Virus record (IMG/VR): IMGVR_UViG_3300012349_000010
Coordinates: 1 to 40,703 of that record
Source: a virus
Direction: 5' to 3' (one strand)
Length of the DNA stretch: 40,703 bases
In this document: one piece after another, positions 333 through 39,158 of the stretch
How the letters are laid out: each line of letters opens with the position of its first letter
How positions within the stretch are numbered: the stretch's first letter is position 1
Position numbers and translations under genes: made by a program
The notes under the pieces: generated by a model
The model's input: the letters and a program-made list of their open reading frames with translations, nothing else
Databases searched by the model: none
Told to the model about the DNA's origin: nothing

Positions 333-654
333 TGTGTTTTTCCCTTTCAGCTTCGCTGAAAACTTCCTTTTCTAGTATCTCCGTTAACTCAGTTAGCTTC
401 GCTGTCTTTTTGTTCTTTGAACAAAAAGAACAAGTTGGATGCAAAATACCTCGAACTTTCTGACCAGCTTTAAGCTGCTTTTGCATAAGCAAAAAGGGAT
501 TTTTACACTTATGGCATATTGCACGTTTGCCGACTAAAAATTCACGCTTTGCATAATGTGAACAGTCAGGATGTAAGCATCTATATATCTCGATATTAGA
601 TACTGAGCGTTCATATTCATGCAAATGAAAATAACTTTCTTCCTTATTCATCAT
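325..654 (-). CDS. small zinc-binding protein, 109 aa
   Basis: Cysteine and histidine pairs recur through the chain: CLHPDC near residues 26-31, CHKC near residues 47-50, and HPTC followed by CSFC near residues 73-79, so it probably binds one or two zinc ions. The C-terminus is charged and helical. The start overlaps the upstream gene's stop in an ATGA arrangement (a second ATG follows immediately). Small zinc-ribbon proteins of unknown role are common in phage early regions. The function is not recognisable; nucleic-acid or protein binding is a guess from the zinc ligands. Confidence 0.65.
   Translation of the reverse strand: MMNKEESYFHLHEYERSVSNIEIYRCLHPDCSHYAKREFLVGKRAICHKCKNPFLLMQKQLKAGQKVRGILHPTCSFCSKNKKTAKLTELTEILEKEVFSEAEREKHNV
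345..361. repeat. short inverted repeat, 7-bp stem, GAA loop on the minus strand
   Basis: Perfect stem TTTCAGC / GCTGAAA with loop TTC on + (GAA on the coding minus strand). It lies inside the 3' end of the zinc-binding gene. It is one of the dispersed GNA-loop palindromes found throughout this window. Confidence 0.8.
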
Positions 655-902
655 TGCTTCGCACCATCTTCTTTTTCTTTTTCCATTGTATTTAAATTTA
701 TAGGGTGCCTATAGCCTTCAAAATCTATATACATTACATTTAAATTATGTCGAGTGCACCAAACTTGAAGACCAATTTTTGTAAAACCTATATCTAATTG
801 TGCATATTCGCGTGGAGATTTATTTTCTGGTAAACTTTTTAAACATTCTTTACAATGAATATAACTTGTGATCTCTAGTTGATTTGAAATATTATGTTTC
901 AT
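651..902 (-). CDS. small zinc-binding protein, 83 aa
   Basis: Contains HCKEC near the N-terminus and CTRH further on, a typical four-ligand zinc site seen in small phage proteins. I place the start at 902 because AGGAAAATAAG lies just upstream of that ATG; an in-frame start at 917 would add five residues. The stop overlaps the next gene's ATG. The 5' end overlaps the 3' end of the frameshifted small ORF at 892-1048. No specific function can be assigned. Confidence 0.65.
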   Translation of the reverse strand: MKHNISNQLEITSYIHCKECLKSLPENKSPREYAQLDIGFTKIGLQVWCTRHNLNVMYIDFEGYRHPINLNTMEKEKEDGAKQ

Positions 903-1048
903 TCTTATTTTCCTCATCTATGCATCTAATAACATCACTTAAAATACCATGAAGTTGTTCTTGCATTTGACGTAATTCAGACATAATTTTAAGAACTTGA
1001 TCGATGAATTATATCAGTAAAAGTTTCGAGAGTTTTAATGTTGTTCAT
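892..1048 (-). pseudogene. small helical ORF split by a probable frameshift
   Basis: An ATG at 1048 reads MNNIKTLETFTDI and runs to a TAA at 991-989. One base over, the frame reads FIDQVLKIMSELRQMQEQ and continues as a coherent amphipathic helix to a TAA at 894-892. Skipping one base near 'gatataattcatc' joins the two into a protein of about 50 residues. The second half also has its own ATG at 984 (30 residues), so it could be translated alone. The split may be a sequencing error, a real mutation, or two tiny genes. Confidence 0.4.
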
Positions 1049-1052
1049 AGAT

Positions 1053-1961
1053 TTAATAGGGGTGCCACGGCGCTACTTTTTCGTACTTGAACGCTTTGAT
1101 ATTCTTTTTCAGAGTTTCACTTTCTAGCTCGTCTATATGTGTGTAAACACATGGATTAGAATTAAATGCGCCCGCACAGCGGTCCCAATTAAATTTAAAT
1201 TCGTTTTTATTTAACACTGTGTAAGCTATTTCATTAAATATATCCAACATTTTTTCTTCCCATCTTTTAAGCATAAACGTTGGGAAGTGAATCAATTGCC
1301 TTCTAAAAGTATCTCGCTGGACTTCTTTCTGAAGTCCAAAGTAATTTATCATGCCATATTTATAGCCAGTGGCCCAAGCATAAGTTAAAAACTGCGGCGT
1401 GTAATTATATAGATTCGTGACACGCTCTTGTGTTTTGTGGTCTACCCACAAAATTTCATGTTGGTTAGTTTCGCTAATTAGGTCTATTCGACCTTCTACT
1501 ATAAATAGAAACTTTTCGTCTTCAAAAAGAATTTTACTAAATCCCACCTCGGTAGAGGATTCCATCTTGCTATTTTTAAAAACTCTGAAATCGTCATTAT
1601 TATAACGAGTTACGTAATCGTAAATTCGCTTCTCAATGAATTTTTCAAATTCATCGCTTAAGCCTGCCGCGGCACATAATTTAACTTTTTTTGTAAAAAG
1701 TAAACTCATCGCTGCAGCGTCATAATTACTTAGCGTTGGAAATTGGGCTCGAATTGAATAATATGAATCTAAAATTGTATGAATCAAAGAGCCCTTTCGG
1801 ATGGACTCGGATGGGCCACCGACTACGCGGAGATTCTCTATATATGCGTACTTCCACGCCATAGGACAATTTAAGTAAGTTGAGATTTGTGAAGCATCGA
1901 GTGTGAGGATGAACTTTTTATTATTTTGTTCCATTTGAATTATTTTTAATGATTTTTTCAA
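1053..1961 (-). CDS. PD-(D/E)XK nuclease of the RecB/Cas4 type
   Basis: The RecB-family motifs occur in order: a GSLIH motif (H61), then EGRIDLI with D160, then WVDHKT with D174-H175-K176, then QFLTY with Q190 and Y194. These are the metal and catalytic residues of the PD-(D/E)XK_1 fold. C32 near the N-terminus and C262 and C271 near the C-terminus resemble the iron-sulphur ligands of Cas4/AddB, but I count only three, so a cluster is uncertain. Family members are 5' exonucleases in recombination or host DNA breakdown. It follows the vWA and SNF2 genes in the same leftward cluster. Start 1961 has GGAG upstream; an in-frame ATG at 1934 gives a more family-like N-terminus. Confidence 0.85.
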   Translation of the reverse strand: MKKSLKIIQMEQNNKKFILTLDASQISTYLNCPMAWKYAYIENLRVVGGPSESIRKGSLIHTILDSYYSIRAQFPTLSNYDAAAMSLLFTKKVKLCAAAGLSDEFEKFIEKRIYDYVTRYNNDDFRVFKNSKMESSTEVGFSKILFEDEKFLFIVEGRIDLISETNQHEILWVDHKTQERVTNLYNYTPQFLTYAWATGYKYGMINYFGLQKEVQRDTFRRQLIHFPTFMLKRWEEKMLDIFNEIAYTVLNKNEFKFNWDRCAGAFNSNPCVYTHIDELESETLKKNIKAFKYEKVAPWHPY

Positions 1962-2728: not shown

Positions 2729-2734
2729 AATTTC

Positions 2735-4318
2735 CTAAAGATGTTTAGATAGGACGGTTTCTGCAAACTCTTTCAAAAATTCTAGGCTCTGCTCGCTATC
2801 GCCTACGGCGCCAATACCTAATTCACCTAAAATATTTCGCTTTTCATAGACTTTTTGATGAAAAAATTCATCTATTGTGTTTACTGCTATTGGATATGTA
2901 ATAGTCACTGCATGTTGTTGGCCGTCACGATGGAAGCGGCTCTCGAATTGTTCTTCGTCGGCACTACTCCATTGTCGTTCTAATACTAATGCATTGGCAC
3001 AACTTTGAAGGTTTAAACCGACACCGCCCGCTAGCGCGTTTATTACTAAAAGACGTGACTTTTGATTATTAAAATCATTAACTATTCGGTCCTTACGGAC
3101 CGTAGAGTCTTCACCGCTTAGTTTAAGCGGATTAAGATTTCGCGCAGCGAAAGCTTGGTATAATGTATCTCGCACGGAGTGATGATGAATGCCGATAGCC
3201 AAACTTTCGTCAGTGCTTTCTAAAAAATCCTCTGTCCACTCTATCGCAAATTTAATCTTAGCAACGCCCGTGATAGCTCTTAACTGTGCCAACCAACCTA
3301 AAATGTCGTTTGATTTTACTGCTTTTCCATTTTCACGTAGAAAGTTACGAAACAAGTCAAGAGTTGAATTATAGCTCTTTTTGATGATAGGATCATCAAT
3401 TTCAATTAATTGAAAGTCACGAGTTAATGCTGGCAAATTGGTTAAAACTTCATGCTTCTCACGACGGATAATGTAGTTGCTAGTTATTTCATGGAACTTA
3501 TTTAAGTAGACTGGATTAATTCGTGTGTATTGGTCTTTTTCGTTTTGAATTAACCATGTGCGACGAAACGCGTCGCGAGAATAAAATCTTCCAGGGTCTA
3601 AGAGGTTTAAAATCGTGAAGTATTCATCGGCGCGGTTCTTAATCGGCGTACCGCTAAGCGCGATTCTATATTCAATTTTGCTTTCACTTATTAATTCAAG
3701 TAACGCTCGTGTGCGTAAAGCACTCGGATCTTTAAAATGTTGGACTTCATCTATTACGATAGCTTTTAAATTTAACTTATTTAAAGCTTCTTTCACGCCC
3801 TTCCTTGATAAGAAGTCCATACTTATGATGTATAATTTAAAACCGGGTAAGATGTGTTTTCTATCTGTTATTGCCATGATGGAAAATACACCGTTGTCAT
3901 CTTGTGTTAGTGCCCAGTCGTGAAGTTCGCGCGCCCATTGGAAAGTTGTCGTTGGTTTTACAACTACTAAAGTTGGAAAAACTAATTGTTTCGATCGTTT
4001 TAGAACGATCGAGGCTTGGATTGTTTTTCCAGTGCCCATAGCGTCAGCAATCAGTGCTTTCAGCCCTGTTTTTTCTACAAAAACTACACCGTCTTGCTGA
4101 TAGTCATATGCTTTCTTCGTTTTGTCAAACGACAAGAAAGATTCATGAACAGTGTCTTTAATTTCTTGTTTTTGTGGTTCGCATTGTACTGTAATGCGAA
4201 GCTTAAATTCCAAGTGTCCACAACTATAAACAAAAATGTCTTTTTCGCCTACGGCAAATTGACTTTGGATACTAACAGGTTTACTGCACGTAGGGCAGAT
4301 TTGATGCAGGATTGCCAT
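2735..4318 (-). CDS. SNF2-family DEAD/H helicase with N-terminal zinc site
   Basis: All the main superfamily 2 motifs are visible: Walker A DAMGTGKT (K98), DEVQ (190-193), SGTP (222-225) and the motif VI region ESRFHRDGQQ near 455-465. An N-terminal CPTC (C8, C11) and CGH (C33) suggest a zinc ribbon. Proteins of this kind translocate on double-stranded DNA, in phages probably during replication or recombination. I choose ATG 4318 (MAILHQICPTC, 527 aa) because it abuts the upstream stop at 4321; an in-frame ATG at 4348 would overlap that gene and has no visible ribosome site. Several short perfect inverted repeats lie inside it, including one at 3138-3152. Confidence 0.9.
   Translation of the reverse strand: MAILHQICPTCSKPVSIQSQFAVGEKDIFVYSCGHLEFKLRITVQCEPQKQEIKDTVHESFLSFDKTKKAYDYQQDGVVFVEKTGLKALIADAMGTGKTIQASIVLKRSKQLVFPTLVVVKPTTTFQWARELHDWALTQDDNGVFSIMAITDRKHILPGFKLYIISMDFLSRKGVKEALNKLNLKAIVIDEVQHFKDPSALRTRALLELISESKIEYRIALSGTPIKNRADEYFTILNLLDPGRFYSRDAFRRTWLIQNEKDQYTRINPVYLNKFHEITSNYIIRREKHEVLTNLPALTRDFQLIEIDDPIIKKSYNSTLDLFRNFLRENGKAVKSNDILGWLAQLRAITGVAKIKFAIEWTEDFLESTDESLAIGIHHHSVRDTLYQAFAARNLNPLKLSGEDSTVRKDRIVNDFNNQKSRLLVINALAGGVGLNLQSCANALVLERQWSSADEEQFESRFHRDGQQHAVTITYPIAVNTIDEFFHQKVYEKRNILGELGIGAVGDSEQSLEFLKEFAETVLSKHL
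3138..3152. repeat. short inverted repeat with GCA triloop
   Basis: TTTCGC / GCGAAA around loop GCA on the + strand, inside the helicase gene. Here the GNA loop is on the non-coding strand, an exception to the usual orientation. The core is GCGCAGC, a d(GCGNAGC) mini-hairpin sequence. Confidence 0.75.
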
Positions 4319-4320
4319 AA

Positions 4321-4539
4321 TTAAATTCCGTAATCTGGTAGATTCCAATAATCAGGTTTAGGGCCGGACCACACTTCAGGAATTAGCTTAGTATAAACTA
4401 TTTTCTCGAGTGTCTGAAATTGTCTTAGAGCAGCGCCATGAAAAGCCTTACGTTTTTTTAAGACATTCTCATAATCTTCAAGGCGGCAAGCTAAATGAAA
4501 TCCAATGAATTTTAATTCTTTATCGGTTAATTGTTCCAT
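4321..4539 (-). CDS. hypothetical protein, 72 aa
   Basis: A small, basic-then-aromatic protein ending in a proline/tryptophan/tyrosine-rich tail (PKPDYWNLPDYGI). The N-terminal two thirds looks helical (LTDKELKFIGFHLACRLEDY). It directly precedes the SNF2 helicase gene, with 2 nt between stop and start, so the pair is probably co-translated. I do not recognise a family. Confidence 0.6.
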   Translation of the reverse strand: MEQLTDKELKFIGFHLACRLEDYENVLKKRKAFHGAALRQFQTLEKIVYTKLIPEVWSGPKPDYWNLPDYGI

Positions 4540-4633
4540 ATTTCACCTCGTGAGAAGCTCATTAATGTAAATAGTGCTTACAATGAGAAAGAAAACAAAA
4601 TACTCAAATCTTGATTCTTGAAATTTATATCTT

Positions 4634-5614: not shown

Positions 5615-5620
5615 GGGAGC

Positions 5621-7173: not shown

Positions 7174-7192
7174 TTCGTAAAACAAAGTTTAG

Positions 7193-7331: not shown

Positions 7332-7703
7332 TTACTTGCACTTCCATTCTACGACCTCCTCTTCGTGTTCTGGCGAGTAATAGGACGGCACGATTTTTTT
7401 GCCGACTACGATCTTTTCACAAACTTGCTCACGCTCGATGTTTACACTTACCTCAACGTGTTCAGAAAATTTGCGCGTGACGCTACATGAATAATTGTCA
7501 TACTTCTTTTCGATGCTTCCGGCTCCGCCGACTAAAGTGGCAGCGAGTCGTGAAAATTCGTCTTTGTCACTGGCGTATAGAGTATAGTGAATCGAGTAAG
7601 GACAGAGATTCAATTCGGGTTCCTCACTCAAAAATTCTTTAAGTGCTGTCAAACCTTCAATTAGATTGTCAATTTTTTCGATCGCTTCATTTTCGTTTTT
7701 CAT
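7332..7703 (-). CDS. hypothetical protein, 123 aa
   Basis: The N-terminus is helical (ENEAIEKIDNLIEGLTALKEFL), then an alternating pattern typical of beta strands (ISIHYTLYA-like, SVTRKFSEHVEVSVNIE) and a C-terminus rich in E and V. I do not recognise it. I place the start at 7703, where ATG overlaps the previous stop as ATGA and GGAGAGG lies upstream; an in-frame ATG at 7727 would add eight residues. It is the last gene of a short leftward island ending in its own terminator. Confidence 0.7.
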   Translation of the reverse strand: MKNENEAIEKIDNLIEGLTALKEFLSEEPELNLCPYSIHYTLYASDKDEFSRLAATLVGGAGSIEKKYDNYSCSVTRKFSEHVEVSVNIEREQVCEKIVVGKKIVPSYYSPEHEEEVVEWKCK

Positions 7704-7855
7704 TGTTTTTCCTCTCCATTCATCCAAGCTACTAGTTTTTGATGTAGCTCATTAATTTCTCGTATCTCAGTAGGTTCTTCATTAGCGAGTCGAATTGCTT
7801 TCACATATAGCATACGTTCAATATTTCTGATACGTTCCGGTACTTTATTTTTCAT
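7700..7855 (-). CDS. hypothetical helical protein, 51 aa
   Basis: Reads MKNKVPERIRNIERMLYVKA and continues as a charged amphipathic helix to TGA at 7702-7700. AGGAG lies nine bases before the ATG. The stop overlaps the ATG of the next gene (ATGA), so the two are translationally coupled. It is too short for confident family assignment; a helical dimer or coiled coil is likely. Confidence 0.65.
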   Translation of the reverse strand: MKNKVPERIRNIERMLYVKAIRLANEEPTEIREINELHQKLVAWMNGEEKQ

Positions 7856-7866
7856 TGTTTTTTCTC

Positions 7867-7959
7867 CTAATTGAAAAAGAGTCTCAAGATTGCCGCATCA
7901 ATTAAGATCGCAGCGAAGCAAGTCAAGATCACGAGCACGTCACCAATGTCCAGGTTCAT
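7867..7959 (-). CDS. 30-residue single-pass membrane peptide
   Basis: MNLDIGDVLVILTCFAAILI is followed by DAAILRLFFN and TAG at 7869-7867. Almost the whole chain is one hydrophobic helix. AGGAGG seven bases before the ATG is the best ribosome site in the neighbourhood, which argues that this tiny frame is real. It leads a three-gene leftward island. Very small membrane peptides in phages can be holin-like or act on host membrane proteins; which applies here is unknown. Confidence 0.6.
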   Translation of the reverse strand: MNLDIGDVLVILTCFAAILIDAAILRLFFN

Positions 7960-8359
7960 ATCTAACCTCCTGACCCTATTCTAGTCTTATATAAACTTCT
8001 GTCTATAGCACCATAAAGATATTTAGTTTTAAAACTTTAGTTTAAACTTTAGTTCCAGCTTTAGCTGGAAGGGAATCCCCGCTTTTAAAGCTAAAACCAA
8101 ATTCCTAGTTACCAGTAATTCTTACATACATAAAACTCATACATTTATACTTACAAATATTTATACATAAAAGAATTTGCGAAGCAAATTGCACCAAATA
8201 CGGTCACGCGAAAATTTGCCCGCTTCGCGTCCGAACTCTGGCCTAAAGTATTGAAATAGCTTAAGATAAAAATCTATTGACAGTGCCGCCACCTTCGTGC
8301 CACCCTACGGGTGCCGCGTCGTAGTGTGTCAAACAGCGATGATAAAAGGTGCGAATGAA
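7960..8359. other. 400-bp intergenic stretch between divergent units
   Basis: I see no convincing gene. It holds two copies of AAACTTTAGTT (about 8030-8060), an inverted repeat TTCCAGC/GCTGGAA (near 8053-8070), a GAA-triloop palindrome (8174-8190) and a CACCC-TAC-GGGTG palindrome near 8300. A TTGACA at 8279 has no good -10 partner. It should contain promoters for the leftward island and for the late operon, but I cannot place them with confidence. Confidence 0.5.
8174..8190. repeat. GAA-triloop inverted repeat
   Basis: AATTTGC / GCAAATT around GAA, containing the GCGAAGC heptamer at 8179-8185. It is in the non-coding spacer before the late operon. Confidence 0.8.
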
Positions 8360-8719
8360 ATGAGCATTGAAGAAGCGCAAAAACGCATAGCTAACTCTCC
8401 ATTAAAGCTATTACAAGACGCCATAGGCGAGGTGCGAAGCAATATGAACAAAGAAAACATAAACTGGCTCGAAAATGAAGCTCTCGTAGAGAGACTCGCC
8501 GCGGCGGCCCATATCTTTTGGGTCGATAAAAAAGTTCAAAACGATAAAGATTATGCTCCAATAATTGATGTGAGTAAATCATATAACGAATTGAATCTGC
8601 AAAGTCAAGAGTTTTACAAATTAATGATTAAGAAGATTCCAGAGCTTCTTTATTTAGCTGGATTCACCATAGTGCCATTAATAGAAAGTTCAAAATGCGC
8701 CGCCGCAGGCGGCGACTAG
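8360..8719 (+). CDS. hypothetical protein, 119 aa
   Basis: A helical protein (MSIEEAQKRIANSPLKLLQD) with a hydrophobic C-terminal third (IPELLYLAGFTIVPLIES). I take ATG 8360 as the start; in-frame starts at 8339 and 8297 exist but have no better ribosome site, and the segment before 8360 is a repeated element also found at the start of the 9135 gene. The last codons (CAAAGGD) are encoded by a GCA-triloop palindrome (8698-8714). It opens the late rightward operon, where small terminase genes often lie, but I cannot show that it is one. Confidence 0.6.
   Translation: MSIEEAQKRIANSPLKLLQDAIGEVRSNMNKENINWLENEALVERLAAAAHIFWVDKKVQNDKDYAPIIDVSKSYNELNLQSQEFYKLMIKKIPELLYLAGFTIVPLIESSKCAAAGGD
8698..8714. 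repeat. GCA-triloop inverted repeat at a gene end
   Basis: CGCCGCC / GGCGGCG around GCA. It encodes the final alanines and glycines of the 8360 gene and ends just before its TAG. Confidence 0.8.
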
Positions 8720-8757
8720 TTTCGCCTTCGGCCAATGGCCGAATTTAGTGTCGTGAA

Positions 8758-8889
8758 ATGGAAGCTATTGAAACAATAATTAGAGTTTTAATTATTTTAG
8801 TGGGAATTACAATTCTTTTAACAGTAGTTAGAATAAAAATAATTGATTTAATTAAATTTCCGTCCCGCCGAAGGCGGGGGAGCGAATAG
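8758..8889 (+). CDS. 43-residue single-pass membrane protein
   Basis: MEAIETIIRVLIILVGITIL, then LTVVRIKIIDLIKF and a basic tail (PSRRRRGSE) before TAG at 8887-8889. One strong transmembrane helix followed by positive charges suggests a cytoplasmic C-terminus. The basic tail is encoded by a GAA-triloop palindrome (8864-8878), so the protein end may have been rewritten by that element. There is no strong ribosome site upstream. Candidate roles include a holin-like or lysis-regulating peptide; this is a guess from size and topology. Confidence 0.5.
   Translation: MEAIETIIRVLIILVGITILLTVVRIKIIDLIKFPSRRRRGSE
8864..8878. repeat. GAA-triloop inverted repeat
   Basis: CCCGCC / GGCGGG around GAA, overlapping the 3' end of the 43-residue membrane gene. 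Similar elements follow at 8908-8920 (GTA loop), 8998-9012 (GAA loop) and 9083-9097 (AAA loop). Confidence 0.8.
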
Positions 8890-9134
8890 TTTCAACTTCA
8901 CTTAAGACCGCCGTAGGCGGCGAATAATTTTAACTTAGTTTTAACTTAGTTTCAATTTAGTTTTATCTTAGTTTCCATAGTAATTAATTTATGCCCGCCG
9001 CCCGAAGGGCGGGCGGTGAAGAGTTTCCGTAACGATTAACTTAAATTAAGCTTGAATTAAAATCATTTCGTTCAATACCGCGGACGCCAAAGGCGTCTCG
9101 CGGTCAAGACAAGAAAATTCGTTAATACAAAATA
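8890..9134. other. intergenic stretch packed with hairpins and short direct repeats
   Basis: I see no gene. It holds palindromes at 8908-8920 (CCGCC-GTA-GGCGG), 8998-9012 (CCGCCC-GAA-GGGCGG) and 9078-9103 (CCGCG plus GACGCC-AAA-GGCGTC with one bulged base). Between them is a run of imperfect repeats of TTTAACTTAGT with an 11-bp period (about 8927-8976). Confidence 0.6.
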
Positions 9135-9530
9135 ATGAAAGATGCGAACGAAGTGAGCAACTTTGATGCTAATTTAGACGCCGCGCTGGCCGCCGCCGGG
9201 ATAAAAAACAAAGATTCATCTGATGAAGTGCGAAGTATCCTAACGCCGGAAGACGCCGCGCAGCAGATTCGTAATTTAATGATCTATGCCGAAAATGAAT
9301 CTGTGCGTTTACGCGCAGCGGAGCTGAGTTTAAAAATAAGTGGCTTTAATTTTGGCGAAGACGCCAAAATTGTAAATGATAATAAGTCAATAACGATTAA
9401 TATAATAGATAAAAATGGGACCGACGAAGTCGGGCTCTTTGATTTACTTTTACCGCGTAGCGCAGCATCGTTTAGCACAGCACAGCACAACATAGATAAG
9501 TTAAATTCCGCCGAAGGCGGCGAAGAGTAA
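9135..9530 (+). CDS. candidate small terminase subunit, 131 aa
   Basis: The centre (EDAAQQIRNLMIYAENESVRLRAAELSLKIS, described by its pattern of helix and alanine/leucine spacing) resembles the oligomerisation helices of small terminase proteins, and the gene precedes the large terminase, though several genes intervene. The N-terminus would be the DNA-binding part but shows no clear helix-turn-helix. Alternative start: GTG 9153 (SNFDANLD). It contains a 10-bp-stem palindrome at 9348-9371, and its C-terminus (SAEGGEE) is encoded by a GAA-triloop palindrome at 9508-9520. Confidence in the coding call is higher than in the function. Confidence 0.55.
   Translation: MKDANEVSNFDANLDAALAAAGIKNKDSSDEVRSILTPEDAAQQIRNLMIYAENESVRLRAAELSLKISGFNFGEDAKIVNDNKSITINIIDKNGTDEVGLFDLLLPRSAASFSTAQHNIDKLNSAEGGEE
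9348..9371. repeat. 10-bp-stem inverted repeat inside a gene
   Basis: AATTTTGGCG / CGCCAAAATT around a four-base loop AAGA, fully coding. It is one of the longest perfect stems in the window. Confidence 0.8.
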
Positions 9531-9574
9531 TAATTTGTGGTAATTATGAATGTATTTAGTAGAAATTTTAGCCG

Positions 9575-9591
9575 CGCCCCCGAAGGGGGCG
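9575..9591. repeat. GAA-triloop inverted repeat
   Basis: CGCCCCC / GGGGGCG around GAA, in the spacer between the 9135 and 9676 genes. Confidence 0.8.
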
Positions 9592-9606
9592 GTGGAGAGC
9601 ATTAAT

Positions 9607-9636
9607 TTCGTGTCACTTCGTGTCACTTCGTGTCAT
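9607..9636. repeat. three tandem 10-bp repeats
   Basis: TTCGTGTCAC occurs three times head to tail (the third copy ends in T), followed by two looser GTCGTTTAGT-like units. The 10-bp period puts each copy on the same face of the helix, as expected of a cooperative protein-binding site. It sits about 40 bp before the 9676 gene. Confidence 0.7.
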
Positions 9637-9675
9637 GTCGTTTAGTGTCGTTTAGCTAAATTTACGGGGTAAGTT

Positions 9676-9954
9676 ATGTCTACAGTTGAAATTAAATCTG
9701 AAGTTCGCGAAGCGAAGTCGATTTTAGATGAAATCTTTAAAGGCCATAACGCTTTTATTCTTTATTTCCGTCAAGGAAACCGCCCTCCGATGTCTAAAGT
9801 CTTTATGAACAAGGGAAATTTACACAATGCAATAGAACGTGCGAAGCAGCATTGCGCCGTGATGGATTATAAATTTTGCGGAGTCTACTCATTTATAGTT
9901 GATTTAGACGAACAAGAAAAGATTCGTGAAAATGAGTTAGGAGTTCATATCTAA
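9676..9954 (+). CDS. hypothetical protein, 92 aa
   Basis: A compact mixed alpha/beta protein (IFKGHNAFILYFRQGNRPP, then a helix, then VYSFIVDLDEQEK). GGGG lies seven bases before the ATG. I do not recognise the family. It contains a GAA-triloop palindrome (9704-9716), and its stop codon lies inside another palindrome (9951-9965, CTAAGC-TTC-GCTTAG). Confidence 0.6.
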   Translation: MSTVEIKSEVREAKSILDEIFKGHNAFILYFRQGNRPPMSKVFMNKGNLHNAIERAKQHCAVMDYKFCGVYSFIVDLDEQEKIRENELGVHI

Positions 9955-9984
9955 GCTTCGCTTAGCACAGCACAGCTTAATTTG

Positions 9985-10003
9985 AAATTCACGAAGTGAA
10001 TTT
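9985..10003. repeat. GAA-triloop inverted repeat, 8-bp stem
   Basis: AAATTCAC / GTGAATTT around GAA. A second near-copy, TTCAC-GAA-GTGAG at 10008-10020, follows at once and contains the GTG start codon of the next gene. Confidence 0.8.
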
Positions 10004-10015
10004 GGAGTTCACGAA

Positions 10016-10222
10016 GTGAGCTTCGTCGGCCGTCTAGTTCATTATAAAGTAAAAGATAATTGTTTAGCAGCAATTATCACAAAAGATATGAAAACTACAG
10101 ATTTGTCGATGACGCTAGTTGTCTTTACGGCGGATGGCGTTGATTTTGATATGAAAACAGCTACTTATGATCCGTTAGGAGTGACCGAAGGTCACTGGCA
10201 TTATTTAGATGCTCACAAATAG
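10016..10222 (+). CDS. small beta-rich hypothetical protein, 68 aa
   Basis: The alternating pattern (GRLVHYKVKDN, AAIITKD, MTLVVFTADG, GHWHYLDAHK) suggests a small barrel of the SH3-like kind common in phage accessory proteins. The start is GTG, with GGAG eight bases upstream; that GTG lies in the right arm of a GAA-triloop palindrome (10008-10020). The role is unknown. Confidence 0.6.
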   Translation: MSFVGRLVHYKVKDNCLAAIITKDMKTTDLSMTLVVFTADGVDFDMKTATYDPLGVTEGHWHYLDAHK

Positions 10223-10241
10223 TTTTCGCCGGAGGCGAAAA
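10223..10241. repeat. GGA-triloop inverted repeat holding a ribosome site
   Basis: TTTTCGCC / GGCGAAAA around GGA. The Shine-Dalgarno GGAGG of the next gene (10231-10235) is formed by the loop and the first bases of the right arm. The TAG of the preceding gene (10220-10222) ends at the left arm. Confidence 0.85.
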
Positions 10242-10242
10242 A

Positions 10243-10497
10243 ATGAATGGACGAAACTCCGTAATTCACCGCGCCTTTGAATTTATAAAAATTCTTAACG
10301 AATCTAAATATGGAGTTACTAGACATGAACTCGCGCAGCGATTTGAAATTTCTGAAAAAACGGTACAGCGTTGGCTTACGTCTTTAAATGAAACTCAATT
10401 TCCAGTTATTATGATTTATGATAATCACACTCCTCGCTATAGATTTCTAAAACAAACAGATTTTTCGCAGGAAACTAAAAATGGAACGAAACTTTGA
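10243..10497 (+). CDS. winged helix-turn-helix DNA-binding protein, 84 aa
   Basis: Residues 10-50 match the HTH_11/DeoR-like pattern: a helix (HRAFEFIKILNES), then GVTRHELAQRFEISEKTVQRWL, where the recognition helix is SEKTVQRWL, and a wing-like PRYRFL at the end. It probably binds DNA and may regulate late genes. Its ribosome site lies in a stable hairpin (10223-10241), so ribosomes finishing the previous gene may have to open it. It overlaps the next gene by 17 nt. Confidence 0.7.
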   Translation: MNGRNSVIHRAFEFIKILNESKYGVTRHELAQRFEISEKTVQRWLTSLNETQFPVIMIYDNHTPRYRFLKQTDFSQETKNGTKL

Positions 10498-10750
10498 ATC
10501 TGAGATTCGAAGATTAGCAGATTTCTTACGTAGTAATTTCGGTGATGAAATCACCGAAGGTGAACTTGTTATAGATAATACAATTCAAATATTAAATAAC
10601 AGCAAAATATATAAAGACGAAAGCCGTAGGCTCTCGAATTGGTTTATGAAAAATTGGTCAGACGAAGTTCGGGACGGTAGCGCCGTTGATAATGCGATAA
10701 GACTTTTAGCTTCATATAAGAAAATACGTGATGGACGAGAAGCGGCGTAA
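10481..10750 (+). CDS. hypothetical protein with an internal tandem duplication, 89 aa
   Basis: Two halves align along their length: RRLADFLRSNFGDEITEG with VIDNTIQILNN, and RRLSNWFMKNWSDEVRDG with AVDNAIRLLAS. Each half is a helix, a DE(I/V)-x-(E/D)G turn and a second helix. I do not recognise the family; duplication of a helix pair suggests a small scaffold or protein-binding fold. A GAA-triloop palindrome with a 9-bp stem (10538-10558) encodes the DE-turn of the first half. Confidence 0.6.
   Translation: MERNFESEIRRLADFLRSNFGDEITEGELVIDNTIQILNNSKIYKDESRRLSNWFMKNWSDEVRDGSAVDNAIRLLASYKKIRDGREAA
10538..10558. repeat. GAA-triloop inverted repeat, 9-bp stem
   Basis: TTCGGTGAT / ATCACCGAA around GAA, fully inside the duplicated-helix gene. 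Confidence 0.85.
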
Positions 10751-10765
10751 TATAATATAGTTAGG

Positions 10766-10782
10766 AATTTACGAAGTAAATT
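10766..10782. repeat. GAA-triloop inverted repeat at the lysozyme start
   Basis: AATTTAC / GTAAATT around GAA. The TTG start codon of the lysozyme (10781-10783) overlaps the right arm. Confidence 0.8.
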
Positions 10783-11335
10783 GAATCTTTTAACTCAGAA
10801 CGTTTTAGATCATTTTGTGAAATATGAAGGTAAAGTACCGCATTTTTACTTAGACCCTTCGGGTCTAGTAACCATTGGTATAGGTTGTCGCGTAGCGACA
10901 ATTCATGAAGCGCTTCAACTTGATTTTTTATATAAAGATAGTAAACTTCCCGCGGAGCGCGATTCAATTCGCAACGATTTTATTATTGTAAGTCAATCTA
11001 TTTCGGGTCAGGATACTTCGTATTACGATTTATTAACTAACCTCTTCTTATCAGAAGAGGATATTGTTAAGTTATTTATAGTTAAATATCTTGAAAAACT
11101 TCATTACACTAAGACCTATTTCGCTGATTTTGATAGCTTTAGTGACAACATTAAGTTGGCACTGCTAGATATGACGTTTAATCTAGGTGTGACGGGTTTA
11201 ATTATGAAATTTCCAAAGTTTACTAAAGCTTTGCAACGCAAAGATTGGATGGCGGCGGCCGCCGAATGTGATCGTCACGGAATTAGCGCGGAGCGAAATA
11301 GTTTCGTACGAAATACTTTCTTAAATGAGGCTTAA
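10781..11335 (+). CDS. endolysin, glycoside hydrolase 24-type lysozyme
   Basis: The catalytic triad has exactly the spacing of T4 lysozyme: E16, eight residues, D25, five residues, T31 (YEGKVPHFYLDPSGLVTIG). The later part (NIKLALLDMTFNLG) matches the conserved C-terminal lobe. It cleaves the peptidoglycan sugar backbone. There is no signal peptide, so export should depend on the holin encoded just downstream. The start is TTG, in the right arm of a GAA-triloop palindrome, with only a weak ribosome site. Two perfect palindromes (10851-10867 and 10885-10901) cover the codons of the catalytic-site loop, including D25. Confidence 0.88.
   Translation: MNLLTQNVLDHFVKYEGKVPHFYLDPSGLVTIGIGCRVATIHEALQLDFLYKDSKLPAERDSIRNDFIIVSQSISGQDTSYYDLLTNLFLSEEDIVKLFIVKYLEKLHYTKTYFADFDSFSDNIKLALLDMTFNLGVTGLIMKFPKFTKALQRKDWMAAAAECDRHGISAERNSFVRNTFLNEA
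10851..10867. repeat. TTC-loop inverted repeat in the lysozyme active site
   Basis: TAGACCC / GGGTCTA around TTC, coding for the LDPSGL segment that carries catalytic D25. A GTA-loop palindrome TTGTCGC/GCGACAA follows at 10885-10901. Confidence 0.8.
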
Positions 11336-11367
11336 TTTTGATTTTTGGAGGAATTAAAAATAAGATT

Positions 11368-11553
11368 ATGAAAGACATTATTATGGGAGTAATCCGTCAT
11401 TTCCTTACTTCATTTGGTGGAGGTTTAATTGTTAAAGGACTTCTGACTGCCGCACAGTTTAATGAAATATTAGGCGCGGCAATGGCTTTAATAGGACTAA
11501 TTTGGTCAGTACTGGACAAGGCAAATCGTTTACCCCAGTCTACTATAAAATAG
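11368..11553 (+). CDS. holin-like membrane protein, 61 aa
   Basis: MKDIIMGVIRHFLTSFGGGL is followed by a loop and ILGAAMALIGLIWSVLDKAN, giving two hydrophobic segments. The pattern (helix with GG, short linker, LIG-IWS helix, charged end) matches small phage holins that sit beside lysozyme genes. It would form the membrane lesion that releases the endolysin. The start is uncertain: GGAGG lies 16 nt upstream of ATG 11368, and an in-frame TTG at 11338 precedes that site. Confidence 0.7.
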   Translation: MKDIIMGVIRHFLTSFGGGLIVKGLLTAAQFNEILGAAMALIGLIWSVLDKANRLPQSTIK

Positions 11554-11560
11554 TTTCGTT

Positions 11561-15717: not shown

Positions 15718-15908
15718 AGAAGAAACTTAAAGCTCGTTACGGCGCTAATTCAGATATTCCGTATAAAATAATGAATGCAAAGGGTTACATGAAAGGTTCG
15801 AAGGAGACAAAAGCAGGGGCCGCCGCGCAGCGGAAACATGAAGCCGACAGGGGAAATTTGCGAAGCAAATTGCGAAATAAGGTATTCAGCGCATTTAAGA
15901 ATAAATAA
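15702..15908 (+). CDS. conserved small phage protein, 68 aa
   Basis: MPEFLEKKLKARYG is followed by a small-residue and charged middle (GYMKGSKETKAG) and a basic helical end. This pattern is familiar from small genes between portal and scaffold in many phages, though its role is not known to me. GGAG lies eight bases before the ATG. A TTTGC-GAA-GCAAA palindrome is coding near the C-terminus (around 15857-15869). Confidence 0.7.
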   Translation: MPEFLEKKLKARYGANSDIPYKIMNAKGYMKGSKETKAGAAAQRKHEADRGNLRSKLRNKVFSAFKNK

Positions 15909-34285: not shown

Positions 34286-34443
34286 AAAATTTTCCTTTGT
34301 CGGAATTTAGTAAGTATTCTGTCAAATAATATTATAGGATAAGTTATTCCATATATAACAATTAATTGAATCATTGCAATGCTCAATATATATGCTGAAA
34401 GAAATAGAAAGATAACGACTAGAATTACACCTAATAAGATCAT
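34282..34443 (-). CDS. 53-residue two-helix membrane protein
   Basis: MILLGVILVVIFLFLSAYIL, SIAMIQLIVIYGITYPIILF, then a basic tail (DRILTKFRQRKIL). Two hydrophobic segments and a positively charged end are typical of small holins or antiholins. GGAAGG precedes it inside the end of the homing endonuclease gene, whose stop overlaps this ATG (ATGA). It is far from the rightward lysozyme/holin pair, so it may have a separate role. Confidence 0.6.
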   Translation of the reverse strand: MILLGVILVVIFLFLSAYILSIAMIQLIVIYGITYPIILFDRILTKFRQRKIL

Positions 34444-34907
34444 AAAACATTTCCTTCCTCATCTTTATTTAAATAAGCAAATTCACCAAAAAGTTCTCTA
34501 GCCCTCTTATTATAGGCACATGCGGCATCTTTCTTATCATTAAAAGTACCTAAATATATTAATCTTTGATTTATTTTAATCTGAGCGCGCCACTTTTTAT
34601 TATCTAAAGTTACACCTTTGAATCCTGATGTATTGTTTATTTGATAAGGCATATTTATTTTATTTTGGCTTCTAGTACAAATTCTAAGATTTTTCTTTCT
34701 ATTGTCTAACCAATTATAATTTATATGATCTATTTGAAGCGGACCGTCATATTGAAAAATAAAACGGCCTAATGTAACAGTTTTATAATTAACTTCTGCT
34801 TTAATTATATTATTACTAACGCTCCAACTCCATTTTATACAACGAACATAATCTTCTGAGTCAATTATAGCTTTTTCATGAGAATTAGTTAAATATAAAT
34901 ATTGCAT
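34440..34907 (-). CDS. HNH-AP2 homing endonuclease, copy 4
   Basis: N-terminal LTNSHEKAIIDSEDYVRC, core PLQIDHINYNWLDNRKKNLR and AP2 part (NNTSGFKGVTLDNKKW through GEFAYLNKD). It is AT-rich. It lies 6 nt after the helicase-like ATPase gene and is coupled by ATGA to the small membrane gene that follows. Confidence 0.9.
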   Translation of the reverse strand: MQYLYLTNSHEKAIIDSEDYVRCIKWSWSVSNNIIKAEVNYKTVTLGRFIFQYDGPLQIDHINYNWLDNRKKNLRICTRSQNKINMPYQINNTSGFKGVTLDNKKWRAQIKINQRLIYLGTFNDKKDAACAYNKRARELFGEFAYLNKDEEGNVL

Positions 34908-34913
34908 AAAATA

Positions 34914-36098
34914 TTAAGGATTTTTTTTACCTTCGAGTATATCTATTCCTCTTTGCGTTAAACGATAAATGGGCGCTACGCCGTTCATGCTTAACTCAAT
35001 TATGTTTGCTTGAAAAAATCTGGCCAGAAGATCTTCTAAGTCATGTACGCTAATATCATTCCAAAACTTAAGTAGCAAATCACTTCTTTTCATTTGATGT
35101 TGAGTAGATTCGTACAGAGCACTCAATATTAAAGCCCCTGATTTTGCTTCGCTAGAGCTTCCTGAACTCATTGTAATCTCCTGATAGTTTGATTTAAGAT
35201 CCATAATTTCATTAATAGCTACTTCAAAATCATTCTTATTTATTTCTGTCTTAAGTTGATTTGCAGCTAATATTATTGCTAGTTTAAGAACCTGGCTATG
35301 AATTCTTTGTAATATACCTGCTCTTGTACCTAGTTTTTTATAAGAAGTATATAGAGAAGCGTACCAGTAATCATATTCGCGGCGGGCGTCATCTGTAATT
35401 ATAACTTCACCTTTTAGCTTGATTATCTCTTTTAAATAATTAATTAATGGACTTAAGTCATATTTATCAAAATCTATATACATTAACGAATTAGCTTTAC
35501 GAGTCTCGTTTGGTCGAATTAAAAGCGTTCGACCAAGTAGGCCGCCGTCTACTGCTAATTTGTTATAAATGTCTTGAAGTAAAGCAAAATTGCTTCCTGC
35601 AAACATACTTAAACATAATTCTTTTATTACGAAATGTCCTGATCTTAAATTTCGTTTATATTCAATTTTATAATCATATAAGTCTGTTAACATTGGAATT
35701 AAGTCAGGATCTTTAATAAAGAACCCGCTAAGTTCTTCTGCAAGTAATATACATTGTCCGCCCCGTAAAGTTACGCCTGTTTTACGTATTCCAATATCCT
35801 GCGAAAGTAATTCAAGTAAAGCTTCTTTTGAAGTAGAGCCTATTAGAGTTTTAGTGTGTGAAAGAGAATCAAGTAATTTTGCACATAACTTAATTGGCGC
35901 ACCCTTACGATATTCTGCTGAATCCGCAAGGAGGACGATATATAAATTAGGATAAACATTATCTATTCCATGTTTATAATAAAGATTATTTCTTAGCAAA
36001 GCTCCTATGGTGGCGTAGCCAGCCCATTTCCAAAATGATTGAGGCGATTCATATTCTATTGTATAATCCAAAAGCAAGGAAACGAAGTCTTTTGTCAA
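34914..36098 (-). CDS. helicase-like P-loop ATPase (DUF3987-like)
   Basis: A 394-residue ATPase with an unusual P-loop, LLADSAEYRKGAPIK (58-66 region; K65), of the RK(G/S) type used by the DUF3987-like phage and plasmid helicase group; the first glycine is replaced by alanine. ILLAEEL (E121-E122) is the Walker B strand. The C-terminus forms a winged helix (LYESTQHQMKRSDLLLKFW through VAPIYRLTQRG). Such proteins lie beside DNA polymerases and probably act in replication as helicase or loader. No primase zinc or TOPRIM part is visible. Confidence 0.75.
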   Translation of the reverse strand: MTKDFVSLLLDYTIEYESPQSFWKWAGYATIGALLRNNLYYKHGIDNVYPNLYIVLLADSAEYRKGAPIKLCAKLLDSLSHTKTLIGSTSKEALLELLSQDIGIRKTGVTLRGGQCILLAEELSGFFIKDPDLIPMLTDLYDYKIEYKRNLRSGHFVIKELCLSMFAGSNFALLQDIYNKLAVDGGLLGRTLLIRPNETRKANSLMYIDFDKYDLSPLINYLKEIIKLKGEVIITDDARREYDYWYASLYTSYKKLGTRAGILQRIHSQVLKLAIILAANQLKTEINKNDFEVAINEIMDLKSNYQEITMSSGSSSEAKSGALILSALYESTQHQMKRSDLLLKFWNDISVHDLEDLLARFFQANIIELSMNGVAPIYRLTQRGIDILEGKKNP

Positions 36099-36160
36099 GA
36101 CAATATCTCATTTTACATATGTTGATTTTATAGTAAGTTTTTACGACACTTACCTGCCTT

Positions 36161-36622
36161 TCAATCTTTGAAATTCAATACGGCAAATTCACCGTGATAT
36201 TTCTTAGCAGCTTCGTCACGAACTTTAGCTGCTTTTTCTTTATCTTGGAAATAACCTAAATGAAATCTTTTTTTATTTACAGTTATTTGAGCACACCAAT
36301 TTTTATTTTTTCTATTATAAAATACTCCAATATACCCAGATGTATTGTTTGTTCGTATTTCTCTATTAAATCTATTTTGTTGTAATGTAATTAATCTGAG
36401 ATTTTCTTTTCTACAATCTATCCAATTATGGTTTTTATGGTCAACTTCGAGTGGCCCACTATATTGAAGAATAAAACGACCTAATGTAGTGGTTTTCCCA
36501 TTAATAGTTGCAGTTATATTATTGCTATTAGTTTTAGACCAAACATATTTTATACATCTAATATAATCTTCACTATCTATTAAAATCTTTTCATGACTAT
36601 TACCTAAAATTAAATATTGCAT
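36161..36622 (-). CDS. HNH-AP2 homing endonuclease, copy 5
   Basis: N-terminal LGNSHEKILIDSEDYIRC, core PLEVDHKNHNWIDCRKENLR and AP2 part (NNTSGYIGVFYNRKNKNW through GEFAVLNF). It begins 4 nt after the DNA polymerase stop and separates polymerase from the helicase-like gene. Copies 4 and 5 have more similar N-termini to each other than to copies 2 and 3. Confidence 0.9.
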   Translation of the reverse strand: MQYLILGNSHEKILIDSEDYIRCIKYVWSKTNSNNITATINGKTTTLGRFILQYSGPLEVDHKNHNWIDCRKENLRLITLQQNRFNREIRTNNTSGYIGVFYNRKNKNWCAQITVNKKRFHLGYFQDKEKAAKVRDEAAKKYHGEFAVLNFKD

Positions 36623-36626
36623 GATT

Positions 36627-39158
36627 TTAAACCTTAAATTCTTTCATATTCATCCAATTTTCATCACTAATCATAATTTCACAGGGAATACTGAGTTCAA
36701 AGTTTCTCGAAAGAGAGCAATTTATAAAGCTAAATTTACGTTCATAAATCAACTTCGCAGTTTCAATATATTTATTTATAAAATCTTTGGATACCTCAGC
36801 GAGAAAAGAATCATGGCTTTCGTTTAAAAATCTAAAGTCTTTTATGTAGTGATCTTTTAATTGAGTTACGATTCGATGCAGAGAGAATTTAGTCAAATCT
36901 GATACTGTGCTTTGTTGGATATAACCAATAGCTTCTCCTACTAAATAGTCATCATATTTTGCTAGAAATTGACGCCGTCTTCCAAAAGGAGTAACAAGAA
37001 TTCTACTATCTTTAATTAAACATTCTTTAATTTCTTTATGAAAAATTTCTCGTATTTTAGGATTATTTTGATGAAATTTAGTTAAGATTTCTTGACATTT
37101 ATCTACTGGTAAATGTGAAATCTGAGATAATCGTATTTTGTGAATGTTATTATTACCAGCGTGCCGTGTAATTTTACCAATATGATAGTAAGATACACCT
37201 ACTTTTGGTATAAACGGTCTATCTTTGAATACCTGCTCCGCTGATATTCCAAAAAGTAAAGACGCTGTTTTTTGATGTATATTAGGTTTCAAGTCAAATT
37301 GCGCTAATAAATCATAATCTTCACATAATACTGCTACAACGCGAGCCTCTGCTTGACTACCGTCAACTTCAATAAACACAAAGTCTTTAGTCGGGACGAA
37401 CATACTACGTAGGTCAGCGGCGATTTCTTTATCTTCAATTTCTTCAAAGATTTCTTCATCTACTTTAAAACCGTGTTTCGTTATTGTTTGTAATGAACGT
37501 CCTATACGTATCTTTTCACCGTTAGCGGTGAAAATCTCATCTATCGTTTTAGAAAAAGATGTTCGTCCAGATTCAGTCCCAGCTAAATTACTGCAACTAC
37601 AAAATCGTCCGTCAGGACGAAGCGGCGTATTTATATACTCCGTAACTTTAGCCAACTTTCGCGCTAATATAATACGAGATATTATATCACTTTTCACAAC
37701 GTCAGTTGTGAAATTAATAAGTAAATCATCTAAAGTTTCTTTATCGCATTTAAACCGGCGATTTCCATCTTCGCTGATTTTATATCTAACGGGAAATTTT
37801 AATTCATTGTAGATTAATTCTCCAACCTGGGGGTTGCTTTTTGGATTAAAATGAGGATTTGCAATAAGATTACGGAGAATGAGTAGATTTGAATTATACA
37901 GCATCGAATACTTTCTGTTAAGTTCATGCTTAACAGAATCGTCGATGCGAATGCCAGTTTCATCTATATTTTTATAGATTAATATAAGTGGATTTATCTC
38001 CTTATTATAAAGCTCTGCGAGAGCAGAGTCCTCTAGTTCTTTATCCATCTCGATGCTACTTATGTGCGCGGCAAGCGCATCTTTACTACAATAAATATAA
38101 AGACGGTCCCGTGAGTGCAATTTAGGATTAAATTCTTTTCCTTCGTCTTTATAATAACTAATTGGAGTATAAATACTTGTATAAAAATCTAAACCTTTTG
38201 GAAGCTCAGGATAAAGTAAGTGACCTTTTAACATCGTATCTGATTCCACGTTCTCTACGTGGAATCCATGCCGCTCCAAGATTGTCCAATCATATTTTAT
38301 ATTCTGGTTATTTTTAGCAATAGGGGCGCGTAGAACACGCGACACGAGTCGCCATAACATTACTTCTTCAGAATTAGAGATTGTTTTGTCACCAAGCATT
38401 GGTACAGTAACAGCTTCGATTCCGTCAAACGTAAAACTAATACAGGTTATTAAACCGTTATAGGTTTCTATATCAAAGCTAAGACGTGTTGCGTCTTTAA
38501 TGTAAGAGCGTTCTAAAAATCGCTGAAAATCTTCGGCGCGGCGCGCCACCCAGATTTTTCCAAAATCTTCTACTTTATTTATATTGTATTGATTCTCTAC
38601 TATCTTCCTGTAGTCCAAGGAAATGTAACTTCGTGCGGTCCAGTCTGAAAATAAATATTGCGGCCCGATAGTAGGAATAATTTTTGGATAGAAATCAAGC
38701 TGCGCTTGCCAGTCTTCCCTTACGGGAAGAATAGAACCACGATAGCAATTAATCCAATACTTACGGCCTTTTGGTTTCTTAATTTCATTTAAATGAGTAA
38801 ATACTGCGCGTAGCGCAATGTCATCTAATGGAACAATAATATTAGGCTTAACATATTTGATTTCGTCGAATAAAATACTTTCATATTTATTTATATCTAA
38901 TTTTGACATTGCTAAACGTAATTTTTTAGGATTAATTCCTGAATACTCTAATTGCTCTTTAATAAATGCGGAGCGATAGCATTCTTTTAGATTTAATTTA
39001 TATTGGTGCAATATGTCATCTATAAATCTTTCTTGAAAGCCGCTAAGCGCCAGACCGTTTTCTAAGTCTTCACGAAGTGGATAGCCTTGTAAGAAGAAGA
39101 TGTTCGCATCAGCATAGCCATGCGATGATACGAGAATTTTTTCTTCTTCAATTTTCAT
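36627..39158 (-). CDS. polA: family A DNA polymerase with N-terminal uracil-DNA-glycosylase-like domain
   Basis: Replicative DNA polymerase of 843 aa. Residues 1-190 have the uracil-DNA-glycosylase fold pattern (ANIFFLQGYPLREDLENGLA, CYRSAFIKEQ, YVKPNIIVPLDDIALRAVF), as also known for the SPO1 enzyme. The 3'-5' exonuclease follows: SFDIET (D229, E231), AKNNQNIKYDW, YCSKD (Y356, D360). Polymerase motif A is VDGSQAEAR (D599), motif C is SHDSF (H782, D783). Motif B is unusual: YHIGKITRHAGNNN, with K662 in place but Tyr at the usual Arg position (658) and Asn-Asn where Tyr-Gly is common (671-672). Numerous perfect inverted repeats lie inside the gene. Confidence 0.95.
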   Translation of the reverse strand: MKIEEEKILVSSHGYADANIFFLQGYPLREDLENGLALSGFQERFIDDILHQYKLNLKECYRSAFIKEQLEYSGINPKKLRLAMSKLDINKYESILFDEIKYVKPNIIVPLDDIALRAVFTHLNEIKKPKGRKYWINCYRGSILPVREDWQAQLDFYPKIIPTIGPQYLFSDWTARSYISLDYRKIVENQYNINKVEDFGKIWVARRAEDFQRFLERSYIKDATRLSFDIETYNGLITCISFTFDGIEAVTVPMLGDKTISNSEEVMLWRLVSRVLRAPIAKNNQNIKYDWTILERHGFHVENVESDTMLKGHLLYPELPKGLDFYTSIYTPISYYKDEGKEFNPKLHSRDRLYIYCSKDALAAHISSIEMDKELEDSALAELYNKEINPLILIYKNIDETGIRIDDSVKHELNRKYSMLYNSNLLILRNLIANPHFNPKSNPQVGELIYNELKFPVRYKISEDGNRRFKCDKETLDDLLINFTTDVVKSDIISRIILARKLAKVTEYINTPLRPDGRFCSCSNLAGTESGRTSFSKTIDEIFTANGEKIRIGRSLQTITKHGFKVDEEIFEEIEDKEIAADLRSMFVPTKDFVFIEVDGSQAEARVVAVLCEDYDLLAQFDLKPNIHQKTASLLFGISAEQVFKDRPFIPKVGVSYYHIGKITRHAGNNNIHKIRLSQISHLPVDKCQEILTKFHQNNPKIREIFHKEIKECLIKDSRILVTPFGRRRQFLAKYDDYLVGEAIGYIQQSTVSDLTKFSLHRIVTQLKDHYIKDFRFLNESHDSFLAEVSKDFINKYIETAKLIYERKFSFINCSLSRNFELSIPCEIMISDENWMNMKEFKV
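37513..37534. repeat. inverted repeat, 9-bp stem, in the polymerase gene
   Basis: TTTTCACCG / CGGTGAAAA around TTAG. Others in the same gene are GATTCCACGT/ACGTGGAATC (38242-38266, 5-nt loop) and CTCTGC/GCAGAG (38013-38028, GAGA loop). Confidence 0.8.

Follow-up and report, generated by a model that had tools for sequence, protein, structure and literature searches.

The window and its hairpins

The window, meaning the whole stretch of DNA analyzed here, is a 40.7-kb virus record (IMG/VR record IMGVR_UViG_3300012349_000010) from a tailed phage. It carries a large excess of short, perfect DNA hairpins whose loops are mostly GNA closed by a C-G pair (written cGNAg, or CGNAG for the bare pentamer). 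Its identified genes include the following.

36627-39158, minus strand: family-A DNA polymerase (843 amino acids [aa]), the largest open reading frame (ORF) in the window and the candidate for the synthesis step discussed below
34914-36098, minus strand: DUF3987-type primase/helicase
2735-4348, minus strand: SNF2-type helicase
1053-1961, minus strand: PD-(D/E)XK nuclease
11561-13072, plus strand: terminase (large subunit)
17348-18556, plus strand: capsid

In a DNA-level search with 12 kb of the window, no cultured phage matched. Phage relatives, all of them uncultured, were found by using the polymerase and the terminase.

Hairpins were counted against local dinucleotide shuffles and against codon-preserving shuffles, in which the amino acids and codons of each gene are kept, and loops were required to be maximal. 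With perfect stems of at least 7 bp, the window contains 36 triloop hairpins and 17 hairpins with a 4-nucleotide (nt) loop, versus 3.9 and 3.5 expected from dinucleotide shuffles. For cGNAg hairpins with stems of at least 5 bp, the count is 46, versus 0.9 in dinucleotide shuffles and a mean of 2.6 (maximum, 6) in 100 codon-preserving shuffles. These counts amount to an excess of about 10 times in triloop hairpins with stems of at least 7 bp and of about 18 to 50 times in the cGNAg class. A preliminary description, made by eye, had reported a genome-wide scatter of such hairpins and proposed shuffling as the check; all nine examples that it quoted are present exactly as described, the counts lie far above both kinds of shuffle, and the excess also stands against other phages and bacteria. 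A sequencing artifact is unlikely, in that near-identical contigs from different metagenomes share sequence (G009, L083, and L006) and the ORFs remain open. By loop length, the excess is strongest at 3 to 4 nt, with little at 0 to 2 nt and a weak, uneven signal at 5 to 16 nt. Within that last range, 8-nt loops (15 versus 4.2) and 12-nt loops (10 versus 3.7) are in excess with perfect stems of at least 7 bp and have no obvious loop motif.

The individual hairpins are listed as arm, loop, and arm.

345-361, minus strand: TTTCAGC-TTC-GCTGAAA; cGAAg loop on the minus strand, within ORF 325-654 (minus)
3138-3152, plus strand: TTTCGC-GCA-GCGAAA; in the SNF2-helicase ORF 2735-4348 (minus), GNA loop on the template strand
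8174-8190, plus strand: AATTTGC-GAA-GCAAATT; intergenic, 17-mer recurring at 15855-15871
8698-8714, plus strand: CGCCGCC-GCA-GGCGGCG; end of ORF 8297-8719
9575-9591, plus strand: CGCCCCC-GAA-GGGGGCG; intergenic
9985-10003, plus strand: AAATTCAC-GAA-GTGAATTT; intergenic
10180-10196, plus strand: AGTGACC-GAA-GGTCACT
10223-10241, plus strand: TTTTCGCC-GGA-GGCGAAAA; immediately before the start codon of ORF 10243, includes GGAGG
10538-10558, plus strand: TTCGGTGAT-GAA-ATCACCGAA; T-A-closed GNA loop in ORF 10481-10750
10766-10782, plus strand: AATTTAC-GAA-GTAAATT
10851-10867, minus strand: TAGACCC-TTC-GGGTCTA; cGAAg on the template strand of the lysozyme-like ORF 10781-11335
10885-10901, plus strand: TTGTCGC-GTA-GCGACAA
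12453-12471, plus strand: TAATATTC-GCA-GAATATTA; terminase large subunit ORF
12550-12572, plus strand: CCGAAAATTC-GAA-GAATTTTCGG; 10-bp stem in a poorly conserved protein stretch of the terminase ORF
13308-13324, plus strand: CCGACCG-GGA-CGGTCGG; G-C closed
15855-15871, plus strand: AATTTGC-GAA-GCAAATT; intergenic
18562-18578, plus strand: TTTCTCC-GAA-GGAGAAA; directly 3' of the capsid gene
21016-21035, plus strand: CTGCAACC-GGAA-GGTTGCAG; cGNNAg tetraloop
28506-28526, plus strand: TTTACCGTC-GTA-GACGGTAAA
28685-28701, plus strand: TTCCACC-GGA-GGTGGAA
28910-28928, plus strand: GATCTTTC-GGA-GAAAGATC

A separate 14-bp perfect hairpin with a CCA loop (1954-1984) lies near the start of the PD-(D/E)XK nuclease ORF and is possibly a terminator or operator.

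Loop rule and folding molecule

GNA loops, or TNC on the opposite strand, account for 36 of the 58 triloop hairpins with stems of at least 6 bp (about 16% expected), and 29 of these 36 are C-G closed, which agrees with the GNA bias and frequent C-G closure described earlier. At stems of at least 5 bp, the C-G closing pair (read on the GNA strand) is found in 46 of 60 GNA/TNC triloop hairpins. Two of the examples quoted earlier, 10538-10558 (T-A) and 13308-13324 (G-C), have GNA loops with another closing pair.

We then used a conditional measure, namely, how often a stem of at least 4 bp follows once the loop and closing pair are given. In the window, CGNAG sites did so in 24% of cases, the other triloops with C-G closure in 5%, and the remainder in about 2 to 3%, and the four CGNAG pentamers held ranks 1 to 4 among 79 closing-pair/loop classes. 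The same pentamers again held ranks 1 to 4 (of 96 classes) in five enriched relatives and ranked 34 to 85 in eight phages that lack the trait, namely, G011 and seven from distant polymerase clades. The probability of the next base pair at cGNAg sites in the window was about 0.65 for stems of up to 7 bp, versus about 0.27 in controls. Tetraloops of the form cGNNAg were also enriched, both in the window (21/216 versus 22/676, p = 4e-4) and in the relatives (70/1202 versus 163/6269, p = 6e-8) and not in controls, and this enrichment was equal for GNYA and GNRA. The second stem pair was G-C in 31 and A-T in 15 of the 46 cGNAg hairpins, and C-G extended best (18/32).

The triloop and tetraloop rules of the window are those of the stable d(cGNAg) and d(cGNNAg) DNA mini-hairpins. 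The published rule for these extraordinarily stable structures calls for G-C pairs and a loop of GNA or GNNA (PMC4686876), and the d(GCGNAGC)/d(GCGNNAGC) mini-hairpins (Hirao, Yoshizawa; PMC4686876) have the same loop and the same closing pair as the phage hairpins. The link to d(GCGAAGC)-type structures suggested earlier was right. Those mini-hairpins are known mainly as a chemical or aptamer motif, whereas here they appear as a signature of genome composition. A regression on loop energy was uninformative because the ViennaRNA dna_mathews2004 tables, as called, hold no special value for GNA triloops.

Next, we considered which molecule folds. A template-strand GNA loop reads UNC in the message. 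In the window, stems formed at 39 of 164 coding-strand and 18 of 97 template-strand GNA loops; in the relatives, the values were 67/708 and 41/592. Across eight genomes, hairpins with stems of at least 5 bp had their GNA loops on the coding and template strands in a ratio of 61:31, versus 501:428 for stemless CGNAG pentamers (odds ratio, 1.7; p = 0.03). The earlier statement that GNA usually lies on the coding strand is therefore correct as a count, but the preference, although real, is mostly due to the distribution of CGNAG pentamers, which are biased alike without a stem. Stem mismatches were G.T and A.C in a ratio of 8:8 (small numbers), and TTTT occurred within 8 nt on either side of 4 of 46 hairpins, compared with 11% of random positions. 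Because the strands are enriched alike, G.T does not exceed A.C, and terminator T tracts are not enriched, these results indicate that it is DNA rather than RNA that folds. Furthermore, an RNA rule would favor GNRA and UNCG only, and GNYA is enriched equally.

These data also bear on selection for mRNA hairpins that act in stability, translation, or termination. Such selection would fit the modest coding-strand excess over the pentamer background, the hairpins that adjoin start codons (10223-10241), and a few terminator-like hairpins in relatives (G009 32460). However, template-strand loops are enriched nearly as much, GNYA tetraloops match GNRA, G.T is no more common than A.C, and TTTT is no more frequent than at random positions. 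We thus consider this explanation very unlikely, and the message control suggested earlier is disfavored by the strand symmetry, the GNNA (not just GNRA) tetraloops, and the lack of a G.T preference. Among specific candidates, intrinsic transcription terminators in general were rejected on the T tract, and RNA GNRA/UNCG hairpins under mRNA selection were rejected on one-strandedness, GNRA exclusivity, and G.U pairs alike. N4-like hairpin promoters are read by a giant virion RNA polymerase, and they were rejected since no gene for such an enzyme is present, the largest ORF in the window being that of the 843-aa DNA polymerase.

The stems themselves vary. A mobile or dispersed palindromic repeat family (REP-like) spreading in the genome would account for local similar copies, such as CCGCCGNAGGCGG at 8700, 8865, 8908, and 9508, TTCACGAAGTG-like copies at 9695-10778, and the two occurrences of AATTTGCGAAGCAAATT. 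Against it, there are 38 distinct inner 5-bp stems among the 46 hairpins, the loop class stays constant while stems differ, and hairpins sit in conserved genes (for example, terminase and polymerase) that are unbroken. REP/BIME-like palindromes were rejected for want of a conserved stem, and a repeat family is largely refuted as the general cause, with a probability that we put slightly lower still than that of mRNA selection. The earlier view that the stems are not copies of one element is therefore upheld.

Distribution, placement, and turnover

cGNAg hairpins number 20 in G010, 19 in G009, 14 each in G019 and G007, 11 in G020, and 8 in G004, with about 1 expected in each. The trait is present in most relatives of the closer polymerase clade, though less strongly than in the window, and the more distant clades are without it. 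The tree has two exceptions: G011 lies inside the enriched clade yet has none (polymerase and terminase about 50% identical), and G016 lies outside it yet has stems at 12 of 134 sites. None of 52 unrelated phage contigs (638 kb) or three cultured-phage records with distant polymerases had the trait. Likewise, slices of 11 to 20 kb from 40 bacterial genomes, 20 from the order of a Rickettsiales metagenome-assembled genome (MAG) and 20 from the phylum of a Bacteroidota MAG, had no general excess. The trait is confined to a set of related, uncultured phages from soil, among which it varies strongly.

A process imposed by the host, in which the replication or repair systems of the bacterium would generate such hairpins in whatever DNA they copy, would explain the trait coming and going among phages. 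It is switched on and off among phages with 50 to 60% identical polymerases and also occurs in the more distant G016, and one Rickettsiales locus and one Oscillospiraceae locus are mildly enriched. The bacterial slices just described lack the signature, and we regard a host process as improbable. The mild local enrichment, with differing stems, lies at L239/L346 (Rickettsiales MAG) and L225/L351 (Oscillospiraceae MAG). A prophage and host search of bacterial genomes with the terminase alignment gave no matches.

Two further occurrences were noted. The exact 17-mer AATTTGCGAAGCAAATT has 63 copies in a groundwater proteobacterium MAG (G030) and 26 in a Lachnospiraceae MAG (G037), with source loci L164 and L165, and its reversed control has no copy in either. 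Bacterial loci picked for this 17-mer reach 7.5 to 8.3 hairpins per 10 kb, in short pieces only, compared with 11.3 in the window; the G030 and G037 slices lack a general cGNAg excess, so these copies look like dispersed repeats and were rejected as the same trait. The virus contig L306 (IMGVR_UViG_3300047557_002464) has 10 further cGNAg hairpins in 14.5 kb and no detected similarity to the polymerase, terminase, capsid, or helicase of the window.

Within the window, hairpins are densest in intergenic DNA, with 14 in 5.5 kb (25.6 per 10 kb). Genes for which fewer than three orthologs were detected contain 13 in 8.3 kb (15.7 per 10 kb), and conserved genes contain 20 in 27 kb (7.4 per 10 kb). 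This gradient is as expected from undirected mutational input filtered by protein constraint, although it is not proof, and protein conservation beneath hairpins was not below the gene average. The densest stretch, 7561-11560, is the 4 kb leading up to the terminase gene, where small unique ORFs lie; of the 70 cGNAg hairpins whose stems have 4 bp or more, it holds 25. Short tandem repeats also occur in this small-ORF region (11-bp TAGTTTTAACT-like repeats at 8925-8968 and 10-bp TTCGTGTCAC-like repeats at 9607-9641), and 9135-9530 has a weak match (E = 0.0025) to the terminase small subunit family phrog_2538.

Turnover was followed in an alignable set in which G007 and G009 are 97% identical, G019 is 84 to 87% identical, and G010 (77%) served as the outgroup. 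Most hairpins are not shared beyond G007/G009. Pairs were lost in stems at 0.110, versus a background of 0.100 with few long stems, and loss at the background rate gives no sign of purifying selection, within the limits of those few long stems. At least one shared hairpin, G009 32460/G019 21396, is probably a terminator under selection, since a compensatory change kept its pairing and a T run follows it.

The main rival to a mutational origin is selection at the DNA level, in which the hairpins are single-stranded DNA elements for priming, protein binding, nuclease protection, or packaging and are kept since cGN(N)Ag folds best. The exact DNA loop rule, the joint excess of core and stem in the window, the peak immediately upstream of the terminase gene, seen in the window as well as in G009/G007, and homologous hairpins with changed but paired stems in G009/G019 (32460/21396) and G019/G010 (30723/7597) all speak for it. 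However, hairpin sites differ among relatives and have no regular placement, stem pairs are lost no more slowly than background, density peaks in the least constrained DNA, and G011 lacks hairpins despite its similar polymerase and terminase. On balance, we consider DNA-level selection unlikely, albeit less so than a host process. Packaging or single-strand signals, which had been proposed earlier, may be among the causes.

Proposed fold-back DNA synthesis

The earlier suggestion that something generates or keeps the hairpin shape was right. The most likely reading, held with moderate confidence, is that repeated fold-back (template-switch) DNA synthesis, with cGN(N)Ag mini-hairpins as its nuclei, left these hairpins as footprints. 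Phage DNA would become single stranded during replication, recombination, or repair, and a 3' end or exposed strand with cGNAg or cGNNAg would snap into an extraordinarily stable mini-hairpin. A polymerase would then copy a few bases off its own strand before returning to the normal template, which would leave two perfectly complementary arms, mostly of 4 to 8 bp, around the loop. The excess, the exact loop rule, the near symmetry of the strands, the patchy distribution, the turnover, and the density gradient are observed, whereas a mutational rather than a selective cause, self-templated synthesis, and the choice of enzyme are our inferences.

Excess small inverted repeats and template switching are already known. 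For E. coli and phage T4, it is established that quasipalindromes, or imperfect inverted repeats, undergo template switching (PMC7202029); in the thyA/lacZ reporters of E. coli and in T4 rIIB, arms are made perfectly complementary with the nascent strand as the template, much as proposed here. Those cases are single hotspots, whereas the phage group has a genome-wide pattern with a strict cGN(N)Ag loop preference, for which the open-license papers searched gave no precedent. The window has the mark of this process, a surplus of short inverted repeats that are perfect and separated by only a few nucleotides. Some arms appear to have been rewritten by one cluster of changes, with few or none in the flanks: at G009 42338-42353, a hairpin arose from four clustered changes with none in 20 flanking bases, and at G009 12213-12226, five changes fall in the loop and 3' arm, whereas the 5' arm is unchanged. 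In rRNA genes, loops that are stable as DNA are enriched among template-switch-like changes (PMC8794818), where arms were corrected; those are tetraloops in rRNA genes, and the loops here are mostly triloops, in protein genes and intergenic DNA. In another report, coding DNA held more short perfect inverted repeats than chance predicts, and template switching was likewise proposed; that excess was small, in contrast to the ~10-fold (triloops, stems of at least 7 bp) and ~18- to 50-fold (cGNAg) excess here.

DNA polymerase theta is an A-family enzyme that self-primes from a tiny 3' hairpin, with short snap-back synthesis from two terminal base pairs (PMC11292364). The phage candidate is also family A; polymerase theta is a human enzyme with special residues.

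Several results weigh against fold-back synthesis. Where relatives differ, the arms changed equally often (17:17), and one-way snap-back predicts changes in one arm. On the G009 and G019 branches, pair gains beside existing CGNAG cores (8/231) were not faster than elsewhere (214/5936), and clustered derived changes with quiet flanks were not clearly commoner in hairpins than in random windows. The CGNAG core is itself in excess within the window (291 versus about 199 to 227), as if core and stem arise together, unlike in G009, G010, and G019, which have no core excess. No close relative of the window itself was present in the collections searched. By a partial alignment, the window polymerase has residues matching the 3'-5' exonuclease motifs DIE, NxxxD, and YxxxD, so simple loss of proofreading is not the reason. 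In addition, E. coli Klenow exo- failed to extend stem-loops in an assay in which polymerase theta extended them (PMC11292364). The direct tests of how arms arise were thus null or underpowered, and fold-back synthesis is only moderately supported; among the causes proposed earlier, a template-switching polymerase nonetheless fits best.

A tentative extension, less likely than fold-back synthesis as such, is that these phages use, or are prone to, self-priming DNA synthesis, with d(cGN(N)Ag) mini-hairpins as the 3' primer and the replication/recombination machinery writing the hairpins. If so, hairpin density would measure how often such synthesis occurs.

In open-license papers, we found no genome-wide signature this strong that is confined to one phage group and obeys the DNA mini-hairpin loop rule so exactly. 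A chemical rule from synthetic oligonucleotides, that of the best-folding DNA loops, thus stands out strongly across a natural virus genome, where it may directly reveal how single-stranded DNA folds as it is replicated in cells. Since loop type separates DNA from RNA folding, the mutation-or-selection debate over surplus small inverted repeats becomes testable, and natural pairs for comparison exist among phages whose polymerases are similar but of which only one has the trait.

Finally, we looked at the genes around the polymerase. A Sak4-like single-stranded DNA-annealing gene, a polymerase neighbor in relatives, was not found in the window, including its ends (1-1053 and 39671-40703); among the 18 phages compared, it went undetected only in the window and the fragment G020, and in G016, it sits outside the first 40 kb. 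Both window ends are near its expected position, so the absence may be a contig-end effect, and presence or absence of this gene was rejected as an explanation of the trait. The N terminus of the family-A polymerase has a weak uracil-DNA-glycosylase-like match (E = 9e-4, below the cutoff). Three HNH endonucleases, two with AP2 domains, flank the primase and polymerase genes (34440-34907, 36161-36622, and 40045-40524).

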